Source of the DNA: Halomonas fontilapidosi
Lineage (GTDB): Bacteria; Pseudomonadota; Gammaproteobacteria; Pseudomonadales; Halomonadaceae
Length of the DNA stretch: 64,000 nt
Assembly: GCF_014192285.1 (NCBI RefSeq)
Contig: NZ_JACHXQ010000007.1
Span: 62,001 to 126,000 of the forward strand
Direction: 5' to 3'
Of the stretch, positions 30,710 to 37,748 are shown piece after piece (position 1 is the stretch's first letter; every line of letters begins with the position of its first letter). A program made the translations under genes and the position numbers. The notes under the pieces were generated by a model, which saw only the letters and a list, made by a program, of their open reading frames with translations, had not been told where the DNA came from and did no database searches.

Positions 30710-32962
30710 ATGACCATGGATATCCAGGTGGCGGAGGGCGACGTCGAGCGCCTCTCGCTGCGCGAATACACCGAGAAGGCGTACCTCGACTACTCGATGT
30801 ACGTCATCCTCGACCGGGCGCTGCCGCATATCGGCGACGGCATGAAGCCGGTACAGCGGCGCATCGTCTACGCCATGCGCGAGCTGGCGCTGGGTGCCAG
30901 TGCCAAGTACAAGAAGTCGGCGCGCACCGTCGGCGACGTGCTGGGCAAGTTCCACCCCCACGGCGACAGCGCCTGCTATGAAGCGATGGTGCTGATGGCC
31001 CAGCCGTTCAGCTACCGCTACCCGCTGGTGGACGGCCAGGGCAACTGGGGGAGTCCCGACGATCCCAAGTCCTTCGCTGCCATGCGCTATACCGAGGCGC
31101 GACTGTCGAAGTTCGCCGAGGTACTGCTCGCCGAGCTGGGGCAGGGCACCGTCGACTGGACCCCCAACTTCGACGGCACCATGAACGAGCCGGTGGTGCT
31201 GCCGGCGCGGCTGCCCCACGTGCTGCTCAACGGCGGCACCGGCATCGCCGTGGGCATGGCCACCGACATCCCGCCGCACAACGTGAACGAGGTAGTCGAG
31301 GCCACCTGCCATCTGCTGCGCCACCCCGAGGCCACCACGACCGACCTGCTCGGGCACCTGCCGGCCCCCGACTTTCCCACCGAGGCGGAGATCATCACGC
31401 CGCACAGCGACCTGCGAAAGCTCTACGAGAGCGGTCGTGGCTCCGTGAAATTGCGTGGCCGCTATGTGCGCGAGGAGGGCAACGTGGTGGTCACCGCGCT
31501 GCCCTACCAGGTGAGCGGAGCCAAGGTGCTGGAGCAGATCGCCGCCCAGATGCAGGCCAAGAAGCTGCCCATGGTGGCCGACCTGCGCGACGAGTCGACC
31601 CATGAGGAACCGACGCGGCTGGTGATCGAGCCGCGCTCCAGCCGGGTCGATATTGAGGCGCTGATGGCGCATCTCTTCGCTACCACCGACCTCGAGAAGA
31701 ACATCCGCGTCAACATGAACGTGATCGGCCTGGATGGCCGCCCGCGGGTGATGGCGCTGCCCGACCTGCTCGGCGAGTGGCTGCGCTTCCGTCGCGCCAC
31801 GGTGCGCCGGCGTCTCGAGCACCGTCTGGGCAAGGTCGAGGACCGCCTGCATATCCTCGAGGGGTTGCTCGCCGCTTACCTCAACATCGACGAGGTGATC
31901 CGCATCATCCGCGAGGAGGACGAGCCCAAGCCCGCGCTGATCGAGGCCTTCGCGCTCTCTGACCGCCAGGCCGAGGCGATCCTCGAACTGCGCCTGCGCC
32001 ACCTCGCCAAGCTCGAGGAGATGAAGATCCGCGGCGAGCAGGACGAGCTCGAGGCCGAGCGCAAGCGCCTGCAGGAGCTGCTCGGCAGCGAGGCCAAGCT
32101 TACCGACCTGATCGAGGAGGAGCTGCGCGACGCCGCCGAGGCGCACGGCGATGCCCGCCGCTCGCCGCTGGTTGAGCGCGAGGAGGCCCGGGCGCTCTCC
32201 GAAGTCGAGCTGGTCGGCGCCGACCCGGTCACCGTGGTGCTCTCCGAAAAGGGCTGGATCCGCAGCGCCAAGGGCCACGAGATTGATCCTGCGGGGCTTT
32301 CCTACAAGGCCGGCGACCGCTTTCACCTCGCTGCGCGGGGCAAGACCAATCAGCCGCTGGTGCTGCTTGACGACACCGGGCGGGCTTACACCCTGTCGGC
32401 GCATAACCTGCCCAGTGCACGGGGCCAGGGGGAGCCGGTCACGGGGCGGGTCAACGTGGCGGCCGGGGCCCACATGGCCGGCCTCATGCTGGCGCCGCCG
32501 GAGAGGCGTTTCCTGCTGGCCTCCGACGGCGGCTACGGCTTCGTCGCCCGCCTCGACGAGCTGACCGGCAAGAACAAGTCGGGCAAGGCGATTCTCAGCG
32601 TGCCCAAGGGCTGCAACGTGCTGCCGCCGCTTGACGTGCCGGCCGAGGAGGGTGCCAGCGTGGCGGCGGTCTCCAACGAGGGACGGCTGCTGGTCTTCCC
32701 GATGGATCAGCTGCCCGAGATGGCCAAGGGCAAGGGCAACAAGATGATCGATATTCCCGGCGCCCGCGCCGCCCGCCGCGAGGAGTTCATGCGCGACCTG
32801 GTGGTACTGCCCGCCGGCGCGGCGCTGGTGGTTCACGCCGGCAAGCGCCACCTGACCCTCAAGGCTGGCGACCTGGACTATTATCGTGGCGAGCGCGGCC
32901 GGCGCGGCAGCAAGCTGCCTCGCGGCCTGCAGAAGGTTGATCGGCTGGAGATTGCGGAATGA
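30710..32962 (+). CDS. parC: DNA topoisomerase IV subunit A ParC
   Basis: The 750-residue breakage-reunion subunit has [20 protein letters not shown], the quinolone region [15 protein letters not shown] (S87 and E91 equal to E. coli S80 and E84, both sensitive-type residues) and the active-site Tyr127 in [10 protein letters not shown]. The C-terminal domain has the ParC-type beta-propeller strands ([26 protein letters not shown]). It cleaves and religates DNA to unlink daughter chromosomes. The stop overlaps the serB start by 4 nt (ATGA). Confidence 0.95.
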
Positions 32963-34173
32963 CACGACGCGTATTGATCCGTGCCACCGGTGTAGCACGT
33001 CCCGGCCAGCTGGCCGGCCTGGGCAAGGCCCTGGCGACCAGCGGCGCCCGGCTGCTGGACATCAACCAGAGCGTGACCTTCGGCATTCTCTCCCTGGAGG
33101 CCCTGGTAGGGCTCGCCCAGGAGAGCGACCTGGAGGGAGCCCTGGCGGCAACGGGCGACAGCCTGGGCCTGGACATCCAGGCGATCCAGGTCAGCGCCGA
33201 GGACTACCAGCGCTGGAGCGTGCAGGCGAGCCAGCCGCGGCTGATCCTGACCCTACTGGCGCCCCATCTGCCGGCCGGCATCCTGGCCGAGGTGGGGGCG
33301 TTGACCGCCGAGCATGGCCTGACCGTGGAACTGATCCACCGCCTCTCCGGCCGTGAACCGCTGGACGGCGGCATGCCCGAGCACGGTGCCTGTGTAGAGT
33401 GCTGGCTGCGCGGCGAGGAGGTCGACCTCGAGGCGCTGCGCGAGAAGGCGCTGGCGCTGGGTGCCATGCACGGGGTGGACATCGCCCTCCAGGAGGACTC
33501 CATCTGGCGTCGCCATCGCCGCCTGGTCTGCTTCGACATGGACTCCACCCTGATCCAGACCGAGGTGATCGACGAGCTTGCCCGGCGCCACGGCGTGGGC
33601 GATGAGGTGGCCGAGGTGACCGAGCGGGCCATGCGCGGCGAGCTCGACTTCCAGCAGAGCTTCCGCGAGCGCATGGCGAAGCTCAGGGGGCTTGACGAGT
33701 CGGTGCTCGTCGAGATCGCCGAGGAACTGCCGCTGATGGATGGCCTCGAGCGGCTGATGCGCCACCTCAAGCGGCTGGGCTATCGCACCGCGATTCTCTC
33801 CGGCGGCTTCACCTACTTCGCTCGCCACCTGCAGGAGCGGCTCGGCTTCGACGAGGTCCACGCCAACGAACTGCTGATCGAGGATGGCAAGGTCACCGGC
33901 GAAGTGCGCGAGCCGATCCTCGATGCCGACCGCAAGGCCGAACTGCTCCACGAGATCGCCCATCGCGAGGGGCTGGCCATGGAGCAGACCATCGCCGTGG
34001 GCGACGGCGCCAACGATCTCAAGATGCTGGCCGCCGCCGGGCTGGGCATCGCCTTCCGGGCCAAGCCGCTGGTTCGGGCCCAGGCCCGGCAGTCGATCTC
34101 CACCCTGGGGCTCGACGCCGTGCTCTACCTGATCGGCTATCGCCAGGGGGACCTGGAGGAGCCGGTTCAGTGA
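32959..34173 (+). CDS. serB: Phosphoserine phosphatase SerB
   Basis: The 404-residue protein has two N-terminal ACT-like domains (about 1-180; for example [21 protein letters not shown]) and a HAD phosphatase domain with [18 protein letters not shown] (DxDST nucleophile), [10 protein letters not shown] and the [19 protein letters not shown] metal site. It performs the last step of serine synthesis. The tandem ACT layout occurs in many gammaproteobacterial and mycobacterial SerB proteins. Its last codons overlap a GTG start (GTGA at 34170) that once led straight into the ion-channel gene now displaced to 36891. Confidence 0.94.
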
Positions 34174-34241
34174 GTACAACCTTCGAGATCTGGCGCGACC
34201 GCTTCGAGCGGCTGCGTGCTCAACAGGATTTTGCTGCATAG
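34170..34241 (+). pseudogene. Severed 5' end of the ion-channel gene (left copy)
   Basis: A GTG that overlaps the serB stop opens a 23-codon frame, MSTTFEI followed by WRDRFERLRA, ending at TAG 34239. These residues match the first 17 of the intact channel protein at 36891 except for one change (Trp for Cys). GGAGG lies 9 bp upstream inside serB. This is the original gene start, cut off by insertion of the element that begins about 34223. Confidence 0.85.
34171..34222 (+). repeat. Direct repeat, left copy (att-like)
   Basis: This 52-bp segment matches 36892-36943 at 48 of 52 positions (differences at 34178, 34193, 34217 and 34220). The repeats bound the 2.7-kb element and lie 2721 bp apart. 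Confidence 0.9.
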
Positions 34242-34387
34242 AAAACAATTGCTTACGCTTATTTAATGTACGTAGTGCAGGTGGTTTCAGATTTTTAAAT
34301 CAACCACTTGCACGCGTATTGTGCGTAGGATTTCTAGATCCGTCCGGTTCGCCTCGCTTGATTCAGTTTACCCGCTATCTTAATCTC

Positions 34388-34702
34388 ATGGGCTACACAA
34401 AGTCGGTCGTAGAAGCCGACCCGGCCGGTTGCCTGAGGACAATGCTGGCTACCTATAGGGAGAACAGGCACATGATGCAAACGAGAGATCAACGCAACAG
34501 GAGTGTCACAATTGATATGCTGCCTGGCGTCAAGCGACTGAGCAGCAAGGAGTTTATGGCGATGCCGCGTGAAGAGCGCATGGCATACCATGTCGAGTTT
34601 AAGTTACCCAAACTGGGTTCGCGCCGGTTCGGCTACTTCGAGCTGACACCTCGCCGGGAGACAGATCGCACCTATAGCCGCATCGGACGGATTCTGGGCT
34701 AA
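34388..34702 (+). CDS. Hypothetical protein, first gene of the element's cassette
   Basis: A frame of up to 127 codons (TTG start 34319) ends at 34702. ATG 34388 (104 residues) is a reasonable start, and ATG 34472 (AGGGAG about 9 bp upstream) is an alternative. No known domain is recognised. The visible part is basic, with RENRHMMQTRDQRNRSVTIDML, AMPREERMAYHVEFK and a C-terminal FGYFELTPRRETDRTYSRIGRILG. The base composition is closer to neutral than the chromosome, which suggests transfer. The stop overlaps the next start (TAATG), so the two genes are co-translated. Confidence 0.5.
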   Translation: MGYTKSVVEADPAGCLRTMLATYRENRHMMQTRDQRNRSVTIDMLPGVKRLSSKEFMAMPREERMAYHVEFKLPKLGSRRFGYFELTPRRETDRTYSRIGRILG

Positions 34703-35127
34703 TGGAGCCGACAGAGCCAACAGAGCCAGGTGGTAACAACGATCGCAATCAATTGCTGAATCGGCTCCTCGACATTGAGGAGCGTAAGCTGGAGCAGAAC
34801 AGCCGGGCCTTGCAGGTGGAAGCGCAGCGTGACGCTCAGCACATGGACTTGGCCAAGCAGCAAAATGACCTATTCGCCGAAGACCTCAAAGATCAGCGCA
34901 GGTCGAATCGCAAGATGTTGACCGGCCTGCTTCTTGCAGGCGTCATCATCTTCGTCATCGTGGCGTTGGTGCTGGTGATTCTTGCCCTCAATGATAAGGC
35001 AGAGCTGGCAACAGAAGTGTTGCGTACCTTGGTCACTTTGTTCGGTGGCGGCGGTATCGGCGGCGTCATTGGCTATATTGTCGGCGTGAGACGCACGTCG
35101 GAAACCTCTCCCGAAGAAGATCCCTAG
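34702..35127 (+). CDS. Coiled-coil membrane protein, second gene of the element's cassette
   Basis: The product has 141 residues. A Pro/Glu/Thr-rich start (EPTEPTEPGG) is followed by a polar helical segment (about 14-70; NQLLNRLLDIEERKLEQNS) that should form a coiled coil. Two membrane helices then lie at about 73-95 (TGLLLAGVIIFVIVALVLVI) and about 108-128; the second contains a glycine-zipper-like run (GGGGIGGVIGYIVG). The tail is acidic. No known family is recognised. The glycine-rich membrane hairpin with a cytosolic coiled coil is a layout seen in membrane-acting effector proteins, but that is only an analogy. It is translationally coupled to the upstream unknown gene. Confidence 0.6.
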   Translation: MEPTEPTEPGGNNDRNQLLNRLLDIEERKLEQNSRALQVEAQRDAQHMDLAKQQNDLFAEDLKDQRRSNRKMLTGLLLAGVIIFVIVALVLVILALNDKAELATEVLRTLVTLFGGGGIGGVIGYIVGVRRTSETSPEEDP

Positions 35128-35134
35128 CCCACGC

Positions 35135-36194
35135 CTACCTACTGCTCGGATCGACCTCGGCCAGGCTGAGGTAGTAGACGACGAGCATGTGTTCGTTGCG
35201 GTGGCCGCTGGCTTCTTGCTTGTCATGGCGGTTGCCTTCGGTGTCGGTGATGCCTCGGCGCTTTAGGTCGTGCAGGCCGAACTTCTCTTCCTGGGTGATC
35301 ACGCCTGCGTCGACGGCGGCTTCCATCATGCGATACCAGGCACCGTCGAGGCCGCCACGGGTTAGGGCGCCACCGCCAATGAACAGCGGGCGGCGTGCCG
35401 GGTCCAGCGGTACCTCTCGGCCGTTCTTCTCTCATAGGTCGTTGCGCACGGCGATGGCGGCATGCCCGGCGCTGCGTAGGCGCTCGTTCCAGCGCACCAG
35501 GTTGTCGCGGCTGCCCTTGCGGCGATTGGTGCGTATGCAGGCCTCGGTGGCGTTGACCTCAAGTGAGGGTGAGCACTTCGATCGCGTGCAGCCGGCAGAG
35601 ATAGGCGGTCTCGATCAGGGCCCACAGATAGGGCGCGACGACGCTGGATGCGGTCGTGCTGCCTTGGCCGCGTGCCTGGCAGAACTGGGTGACCAGGGCG
35701 AGCACCAAGCGTTCGGGGAGGCGATGGCGTGCGCGTTCCTTGGCGGGTTCGATTGTCCAGGCGGGGTTGTCGGTGCAATGGCCACGGTTCATGCCCCAGC
35801 GGTAGATGCGGCGCAGGTAGGCAACGACGTGATTCGCCTTGGCGGGTGTGCCTTCCTGGGCTATGCGATCCGCCAGCCGTTGGACGATGTCAGGGGTGAT
35901 GCGGTGGCAGTTGAGGTCGATGATCCGCGACTCGGCCCGCATGGTGGTGCGCTCGAGGACCAGACGGGCATAGCTGTAGCTTTCCTGGGTCTTGCTGGCC
36001 AGGCGCTTGAACAGGTCGCTGTTGTGGAACTGGTCGGCGAGCCAGCGCAGGCTGTGCCGGTCACTGGTGTGCATGTCCTGGGCGATGTGTGCAGATCCGC
36101 CAGAGTGGCCCTGGCGCTGGCGTAGGCTTACCCAGCCACGTCGCTTGAGGCGCTTGCGCGAGATGGTGAGGCGGTAGCGGGTGGCGTCGTCCAT
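35135..36194 (-). pseudogene. Broken tyrosine recombinase of the element
   Basis: The start is near 36194 (or 36203). The N-terminal SAM-like and early catalytic parts are readable to about 35559 (RLADQFHNSDLFK-type core; YLWALIETAYLCRLHAIEVL). There a frameshift and stop (LTLT-stop) occur. The rest continues in another frame, is cut by a TGA at about 35432, and ends with GLHDLKRRGITDTEGNRH, KQEASGHRNE and LVVYYLSLAEVDPSSR, the HxxR, His and Tyr region of the family. In the first motif the position of the catalytic Arg reads His (CRLHAIEV where CRLRAIEV is expected). At least three lesions therefore inactivate it. Confidence 0.8.
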
Positions 36195-36289
36195 GGGTTC
36201 CATCCAGGAGGGCCCGGCGGGTGCTATGCTGGCAGAATGCGCCGGCTGATGCAGGCCGACAAGGAGGTCACTCAACAGCAGGAGGCAAG

Positions 36290-36652
36290 ATGCGGATTAT
36301 CGGCGGCTCGTTCGGCACTCGCGGCAAGATCGACATCGGCAAACACGGCATCACCGTGCGCGGTGCCCGGACGCTCACCTATCTCCCCAGCCAGCTCGCC
36401 ACCCTTCATGCCCGCCGTGAAAGCGAGAGGCGGTTTGCTGTGCTTACCTTTCTGCTCGGGTTGATCATTTTTGGCGGCCTGGGGTTCCTGTTCCTCGGGC
36501 CTCTGGGTCTGATCATCGCCCTGGTGCTGTGCATCGTCGGCTCGTTCTACCGCCGCACCAACTACTATACCGATCTCGTCTTCACCGACGGCAACAGCGT
36601 GACGGTGGAGACCACCCGCCGCCAGGCCGATCAGCTGGCCGAGTTGAAGTAG
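36290..36652 (+). CDS. Small membrane protein carried by the element
   Basis: The product has 120 residues. GGAGG is 4 bp upstream of ATG 36290. The N-terminal 45 residues (IIGGSFGTRGKIDIGKHGITVRG) look like a short beta-rich domain. Two closely spaced membrane helices follow (FAVLTFLLGLIIFGGLGFLF and GLIIALVLCIVGSFY). A C-terminal beta-like segment (TDLVFTDGNSVTVET) completes the protein. The layout resembles small membrane proteins with a cytosolic PH-like fold (DUF6232-like), but this is uncertain. It diverges from the integrase remnant and shares no operon. Confidence 0.6.
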   Translation: MRIIGGSFGTRGKIDIGKHGITVRGARTLTYLPSQLATLHARRESERRFAVLTFLLGLIIFGGLGFLFLGPLGLIIALVLCIVGSFYRRTNYYTDLVFTDGNSVTVETTRRQADQLAELK

Positions 36653-36890
36653 CCCATCGCTGCCCCCCGCTCCTTGAAAACGAGCGGGTTACCCCCGGCA
36701 GACTCTCCAGATTTCGCGTATGGCCACCTGCTCGCGTGATAACATCTCGCGGCCCAAGGACGCTATGGGGGCTATTTGTACGTCGAATTGTACGTAGCGC
36801 CGTGCGCTAGCCGCTGTCAGCCCGTTAGCGCCTTCCATTTGTTTCGGTAAATACCCAGTATTATCAGTTGATTGTGAGATTCCAAGCAAC

Positions 36891-37748
36891 ATGAGTACCA
36901 CCTTCGAGATCTGTCGCGACCGCTTCGAGCGGCTGCGCGCCCACAAGGCCTTCGAGCTGACGGTGATCACCATCATCGTGGTCTCGGCGCTGCTGATCGG
37001 CGCCAAGACCTACGAGGAGACCAACCGCTTCCAGCAGTGGCTGCTGGTCATGGACGTGGCGGTGACGGTGTTCTTCCTGGTGGAGATCCTGATCCGCATG
37101 GCCGCGGAGAAGCGCCTGCGCGACTTCTTCCGCAAGGGCTGGAACATCTTCGACTTCCTGATCGTCACCGCCAGCCTGATCCCGCTGGATGACTCGGAGA
37201 TGGTGCTGCTGGCGCGGCTGCTGCGCATCTTCCGCGTGCTGCGCCTGGTGTCGATGATCCCTGAACTGCGCATGCTGATGGCGGCGCTGGTCAAGTCGAT
37301 CCCGCGCATGGGCTATGTGGCCCTGCTGATGTTCATCATCTTCTACATCTACGCGGCGATCGGCAGCTTCCTGTTCGCCGAGGTGGATGAATTTCTGTGG
37401 GCCAACATCTCCACGGCCATGCTGACCCTGTTCCGGGTGGCGACCTTCGAGGACTGGACCGACGTGATGTACGCCACCCAGGAGCTTTATGCCTGGAGCT
37501 GGATCTACTACCTGACCTTTATCTTTCTCACCGCCTTCATCTTCCTCAACATGATGATCGGCATTGTGCTCGACGTGATGCAGAAGGAGAGCGCGCAGAT
37601 GGAGATCGAGAGCGGTGAGGGCGAGGCCGCCGAACTGCACGGTTTGCGCCATGATGTGCGCCAGCTGAGTGCCCAGCTCGACCGCATGGAAGCCGCCCTC
37701 GGCGACAGACAGCGCGGTGCCAGAGTTGACAGGCGCGTTGAAGACTGA
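36891..37748 (+). CDS. Bacterial voltage-gated cation channel (NaChBac/Nav-like)
   Basis: The 285-residue single-domain channel has six membrane segments: S1 about 21-41, S2 47-69, S3 84-98, S4 103-122 with Arg every third residue (R109, R112, R115, R118), S5 139-163 and S6 202-231. The pore helix and filter read LFRVATFEDWTD (T185 to W189), comparable to TLESW of NaChBac, giving one Glu per subunit. The C-terminus is an acidic neck followed by a short coiled coil (LHGLRHDVRQLSAQLDRME) that assembles the tetramer. It should conduct sodium or other cations on depolarisation. Originally coupled to serB, it now starts at an ATG supplied by the inserted element, with a poorer ribosome site. Confidence 0.85.
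   Translation: MSTTFEICRDRFERLRAHKAFELTVITIIVVSALLIGAKTYEETNRFQQWLLVMDVAVTVFFLVEILIRMAAEKRLRDFFRKGWNIFDFLIVTASLIPLDDSEMVLLARLLRIFRVLRLVSMIPELRMLMAALVKSIPRMGYVALLMFIIFYIYAAIGSFLFAEVDEFLWANISTAMLTLFRVATFEDWTDVMYATQELYAWSWIYYLTFIFLTAFIFLNMMIGIVLDVMQKESAQMEIESGEGEAAELHGLRHDVRQLSAQLDRMEAALGDRQRGARVDRRVED
36892..36943 (+). repeat. Direct repeat, right copy (att-like)
   Basis: This is the second copy of the 52-bp repeat, and it forms codons 1-18 of the intact ion-channel gene. Three of its four differences from the left copy are silent in the channel frame; one changes Trp to Cys. Confidence 0.9.

Follow-up and report, generated by a model that had tools for sequence, protein, structure and literature searches.

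Within a 64-kb stretch of the Halomonas fontilapidosi genome (contig NZ_JACHXQ010000007.1, positions 62,001 to 126,000; hereafter the window), an insert separates serB from an ion-channel gene. This insert is very probably the decayed remnant of a temperate tailed phage that integrated into the 5′ end of the channel gene. The evidence comprises direct repeats that bracket the insert, empty sites in relatives, occupation of this site in other genomes, two of which carry prophage genes there, a broken integrase, and the fusion of this integrase to the start of another phage gene. A sequence-only reading made earlier had proposed a site-specific insertion at the channel 5′ end with the repeat as attachment (att) site, and both the empty junctions and the use of the same site elsewhere bear this out. 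The source genome is coded G000, and other G and L codes denote the genomes and loci compared. The main features are as follows (window coordinates):

32959–34173, plus strand: serB, matched by the HAD and ACT families of Pfam; its stop codon overlaps the GTG at which the channel gene formerly began
34171–34222, plus strand: attL copy of the 52-bp repeat, formerly the first 17 channel codons and now the start of a 23-codon dead-end open reading frame (ORF)
35138–36121, minus strand: integrase pseudogene, with tyrosine integrase pieces at 36086–35562 and 35551–35138
36117–36194, minus strand: start of a small phage gene (QHH_28-like), 26 codons, running into the integrase remnant
36891–37748, plus strand: ion-channel gene (Ion_trans; PF00520, E = 3.5e-47), with an element-borne ATG at 36891
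36892–36943, plus strand: attR copy of the 52-bp repeat, on the channel side of the insert

Insert boundaries and empty sites in relatives

The direct repeats bracketing the insert (34171–34222 and 36892–36943) proved to be as previously described, with 48 of 52 positions identical and a spacing of 2721 bp. A BLAST comparison of the left copy with the 64-kb window recovered the right copy at E = 1.5e-17, all other matches being at E = 0.3 or worse. The full 2778-bp stretch occurs once in the source genome, and the GC content of the insert is 60.0% versus 65.9% for the window. serB ends in GTGA, of which the GTG (34170–34172) is the former channel start; reading onward from the left repeat copy, a stop is reached after 23 codons. 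The left part of the attR copy is probably phage-derived and its right part host-derived.

Empty sites were sought among the best 80 of 532 channel loci, taken from named genomes. A same-strand serB match was present in the fetched stretch at 43 of these loci, and serB ended no more than 19 bp from the channel start at 23. At 13 of the 80, the serB stop overlaps the channel GTG exactly as at the left repeat of the window, with no insert. These supply the empty serB-channel junction with a single copy that had been suggested as a check; the overlap that they keep has been lost in the window, as had been claimed. Within the 80 loci, the channel start was never found twice, and no locus matched the ORFs of the window element at E ≤ 0.001. 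One of them, L038, is occupied by a 37-kb prophage with its attL outside the fetched stretch, and L038 alone carries the right-end signature described below.

Occupation of the same site in other genomes

Across 275 genomes of the family, the channel start is occupied in three besides the source genome: G104, G001, and G165 (Onishia taeanensis BH539, the DNA of which is identical to locus L038). The suggested search for the same integrase and att site at the same gene elsewhere was positive, with a related integrase present in G001 and G165. In G104, serB is followed by the repeat, a second repeat 1746 bp on (with a 42-bp identical block), and the channel gene; no integrase match was found in this 1.7-kb insert. 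Channel and serB could be placed in 22 genomes, among which G001 and G165 have approximately 40 kb between the two genes. The G001 element spans 39.1 kb between repeats identical at 50 of 53 positions, and the G165 element 37.4 kb between repeats identical at 53 of 53. Both have an integrase with an open frame (385 aa, 112 bp from attL in G001; 386 aa, with one gene between it and attL in G165), oriented toward attL as in the window.

Both are also recognizable as prophages. The ten proteins chosen from G001 matched PHROGs families for tail, minor tail, tape measure, major tail, head protease, both terminase subunits, endolysin, and integrase, while the six chosen from G165 matched terminase, portal, major head, tape measure, and integrase, one (509 aa) being unmatched. 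In addition, the integrases of G001 and G165 are both present at 100% in IMG/VR virus records.

The right-end double site followed by ATGAG occurs in exactly four of the 275 family genomes (G000, G001, G104, and G165), and a backward-pattern control in none. Other searches were less specific. The core pattern of the repeat matched 60 of 90 genomes of the genus and is therefore insensitive, as 30 remained unmatched; two copies within 3 kb were found in G000 and G104 only. Only one of five IMG/VR records searched had the core pattern, and the record of the G165 prophage was among the four misses, so such trimmed records are uninformative on this point. The window integrase was matched at E ≤ 1e-40 in 21 genomes, at this site in G000, G001, and G165. 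The other 18 (44–52% identity) were rejected as same-site cases because the gene lay far away or on another contig than serB and the channel, although in draft genomes an integrase on another contig is not proof of another site. An order-wide search with the G001 integrase gave matches in 4 of 390 genomes at the same threshold, the source genome included.

In a tree built from channel DNA after removal of the first 20 codons, G104 adjoins H. alimentaria (support 0.54), G001 stands beside Aidingimonas lacisalsi (1.0), and G165 groups with two other Onishia loci (1.0). The window falls near H. urmiana and H. denitrificans (0.23), with its closest identity to H. urmiana (92.5%). The right-end signature is in no locus of these tree neighbors. 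Separate integrations would be the simplest reading, albeit a weak one for the window.

Several further observations were made at occupied or similar sites. The G104 insert holds a Fic-family gene (PF02661, L117:5459-6073) behind a 56-aa ORF, and the two are possibly a toxin-antitoxin pair. Between attL and the integrase, the Onishia prophage carries a 509-aa gene (L113:7121-8650) where the window has the two genes orfA and orfB; this gene matched nothing in PHROGs or PADLOC and, in Pfam, P-loop families only below the cut-off. The Onishia attL (L113:6937-6989) and attR (L135:6788-6840) agree at all 53 bp, even at silent positions, as though the attP of the phage had been matched to this host. 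G054 has one-mismatch core copies at C1:750996-751018 and 814058-814080, on one strand and 63 kb apart, and the right-end signature is absent from its genome.

Arm-type sites at the element ends

Two features of the insert lie near its ends:

34267–34273, plus strand: arm-type site of the left end, TGTACGT, at a distance of 97 bp from the former start codon
36776–36794, plus strand: right arm-type double site TTGTACGTCGAATTGTACG, common to the element right ends

TGTACGT-like sites stand 97–98 and 150–152 bp inside the left end of all four elements, the second being degenerate in the window (TGTGCGT at 34320, read by eye). At the four right ends, a TGTACG pair lies 112–115 and 100–103 bp 5′ of the channel ATG. 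We infer from this arrangement that the end motifs reflect the arm-site geometry of an integrase. Segmental duplication or recombination in the serB–channel interval, without any mobile element and with the integrase as a bystander, would account for the repeat itself and nothing more. That explanation is extremely improbable, since in four genomes arm-type sites stand at nearly constant distances from a repeat of this kind, and an open integrase frame lies near attL in two of the four.

With up to one mismatch, the 19-mer TTGTACGTCGAATTGTACG was found in 7 of the 275 genomes, three at the channel and four beside another gene; the right end of G001 carries a two-mismatch variant, which this search missed. 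The other gene is an ABC permease, the motif standing beside its 3′ end (L136:9447-9465, L137:9746-9764, L138 near 9413, and L139:9803-9821). The permease was identified by PF00528 in L136, by translated similarity in L137, and by DNA likeness in L138 and L139, and we take it to be PhnE-like. Its 3′ end is perhaps a second attachment site of integrases with similar arm-site specificity. In viral contigs, the arm motif alone is unspecific (50 stretches); among these, L192, the IMG/VR record of the G001-type integrase, also has the channel, and L172 has an integrase relative.

Probable origin of the insert by interior deletion

The tyrosine recombinase inside the insert is broken, as had been noted, through the loss of its N-terminus, a frame change, and a stop. 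Its two pieces, in two frames and with one internal stop, are 76–77% identical to the intact 385-aa G001 integrase from residue 68 on; residues 56–66 of the latter are weakly matched (E = 0.08) and residues 1–55 unmatched. What had appeared to be the N-terminus of the integrase ORF (36194–36117) is instead the start of another phage gene, and this QHH_28-like 5′ end is the non-integrase phage gene of the window insert. DNA of Halomonas phage QHHSV-1 (KX879752.1) is 90% identical to window positions 36119–36198 over 80 bp. In that phage, QHH_28, the relative of the small gene in the window, lies between the integrase and the late genes. The QHHSV-1 integrase shares just 25% identity with the G001 enzyme, and the channel-start core did not turn up in the QHHSV-1 record. 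The phage is described as virulent in the excerpted text of PMC10580944.

In the G165 prophage, a complete relative of the small gene, 51% identical to QHH_28, is situated toward the right end, approximately 450 bp from attR, and the relatives in G079 and G083 are located close to genes related to the G165 late genes. When a prophage is opened at attP, the integrase and the small gene stand at opposite ends and in the same direction, so that one interior deletion explains their fusion. Fusion by interior deletion in turn makes the insert a prophage stub, and the earlier description as a compact element gives way to that of a prophage remainder, given the fusion and the intact prophages at the site. 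An integrative element or phage satellite that was small from the outset, carried its own integrase and a few cargo genes, and has since decayed would suit the present sizes (2.7 kb, and 1.7 kb in G104) and the accessory genes (orfA and orfB; the Fic-family gene in G104). We consider it very unlikely: the truncated start of a phage right-end gene stands in place of the integrase start, an arrangement that an interior deletion would produce, and at this site an open integrase frame is found in two elements, both of them full prophages.

QHH_28-like genes form a conserved family of approximately 100 aa in several Halomonadaceae, located near the integrase and attachment region or the prophage right end (e.g., L135:6078-6341 and L211:13003-13308). 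The L118 member had no Pfam match.

The remainder of the insert contains three ORFs:

34319–34702, plus strand: orfA, 127 aa, between attL and the integrase
34702–35127, plus strand: orfB, 141 aa, a probable membrane protein
36290–36652, plus strand: orfC, 120 aa, with relatives (58–59%) in G079 and G083

No relative of orfA was found at E ≤ 0.001 in the other 274 of the 275 family genomes. orfB had only below-cut-off Pfam matches, to DUF3792 and Phage_holin_3_6. The relatives of orfC in G079 and G083 adjoin the same small gene and prophage genes. None of six proteins was matched by PADLOC. At the DNA level, the insert matched 1 of 72,556 plasmid records, in the integrase part only, and 9 of 50,697 phage records, in the integrase or small-gene parts only.

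Under the prophage reading, a tyrosine integrase would have recombined an attP bearing a copy of the channel 5′ end with an attB made up of the first ~17 channel codons, which in this lineage would overlap the serB stop. The crossover would lie within the 23 bp CGCGACCGCTTCGAGCGGCTGCG. Integration would leave the native GTG and first codons beside serB as a dead-end ORF (attL) and place a phage-borne ATG and first codons before the rest of the channel gene with the frame kept (attR). A later deletion, of approximately 35 kb if the phage resembled its 37.4- and 39.1-kb relatives, would have joined the 5′ end of the right-end phage gene to the integrase interior, and further mutations would have broken the integrase. 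The stub would then be unable to excise by itself and would now supply the start codon, the leader, and about the first 8 codons of the channel.

Several results weigh against this account. No structural families in PHROGs were matched by four proteins of the window insert; the deletion model relies on two relatives with integrases 55–76% identical; and a comparable stub could also remain from a satellite that lacks structural genes. A same-species empty strain, an excised form, and a free attP were not seen. On the serB side, same-strand serB was not found at 37 of the 80 channel loci (fetched stretch up to 6 kb upstream), so only 43 loci inform on this side, and at 20 of the 80 the two genes are separated by 492–4891 bp of other DNA. 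These 20 were rejected as occupied sites because no copy of the channel start was detected in the gaps; they look like older gene-content differences. Finally, G001 and G165 have 1.9–2.4 kb of DNA between serB and attL, and hence the constant target is the channel start and not the serB junction.

Channel start and putative control of channel expression

The best solved relatives of the channel are voltage-gated calcium and sodium channels, with an "Ion transport protein" (4dxw) in the top five. All four right ends supply an ATG and the in-frame sequence MS...RFERLRA. In the window and G104 this ATG took the place of GTG, and in G001 and G165 the attL copies also start with ATG. The sequence-only reading had noted a weaker ribosome site at the new start, and the computed anti-Shine-Dalgarno pairing agrees (new versus native start, −2.7 versus −9.3 kcal/mol in the window and −2.9 versus −9.3 in G104). 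Pairing is nearly unchanged in G001 (−2.2 and −2.5) and G165 (−2.9 and −3.5). Residue 8 of the channel is Cys in the window; in 80 relatives it is Trp (66), Leu (11), Met (2), or Val (1), and in none Cys. A change in channel expression is plausible.

One further feature lies in the right end:

36737–36746, plus strand: −10-like block TGATAACATC, conserved in the four right ends (TGRTANNATC)

The block stands 144–154 bp 5′ of the ATG in all four right ends, and a stricter form occurs once in the 64-kb window. It resembles an extended −10 element. Its conservation suggests that the element may drive transcription of the channel. When no pattern is preset and shifts may reach 10 bp, the four right ends agree in 7 of 10 columns, and none of 400 shuffles reaches 6; the same test on the four permease-site right ends gives 3 columns. 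Limiting the shifts to 6 bp removes the excess (4 columns, a number reached by 170 of 300 shuffles), and the 10-bp limit was set after the sequences had been seen.

It may be added to the prophage-stub reading that the right end was kept because it controls channel expression, which would fit this column agreement and the open channel frame. We regard the addition as doubtful: the excess vanishes with the narrower shifts, the wider limit having been picked post hoc, and shared phage ancestry could also conserve the block. Moreover, the exact pattern was derived from these same sequences, and its absence at the four permease-site loci is expected of so rare a word. A scan for consensus promoters found none, which likewise counts against outward transcription, and the Cys at residue 8 is without parallel in the 80 relatives.

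A broader proposal is that a Halomonadaceae phage lineage uses the ion channel as its attachment gene and that in lysogens a conserved outward promoter at the right end of the phage takes over channel expression. In Halomonas, the takeover would be from serB-coupled translation, with lysogeny and decay to a locked remnant rewiring the channel. As a whole, we offer this proposal tentatively, as possible but on the unlikely side.

Relation to known systems and significance

Integration into a gene 5′ end that provides a new N-terminus is established for dusA, and the integrative and conjugative element (ICE) SXT restores the frame of prfC in the same manner, according to the excerpted texts of PMC4482086 (dusA) and PMC8409611 (both). 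The dusA islands and prophages resemble the elements described here in their 5′-end coding target, imperfect direct repeats, and new 5′ coding end (same excerpts). They differ in that an ion channel of the voltage-gated type is the target here, the segment supplied is short and has nearly the same protein sequence, and only a dead remnant of the element is left in the window. SXT is conjugative (excerpted text of PMC8409611), whereas the intact relatives here are prophages. Frame-restoring 5′-end integration is known, and the new part is the channel target. Among 37 matching phage records, the G001 integrase was best matched by those of Pseudomonas phages LPPA56 (51.4%) and Dobby (50.3%); Dobby has one TGTACG in 4290 bp, a stretch covering only 138 bp beyond the integrase gene. 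Among the papers listed, titles and abstract openings turned up no phage in an ion-channel gene, which is not proof of absence, and the words ion channel, ion transporter, and serB do not appear in the excerpted text of PMC11131426.

The ion-channel gene joins the coding genes that are used as 5′-end attachment sites. To our knowledge, the cellular role of such voltage-gated-type channels in bacteria is poorly understood. The four natural cases (two intact prophages and two small remnants), together with many empty relatives, constitute a natural experiment on the effects of prophages upon the expression and properties of a bacterial voltage-gated-type channel.

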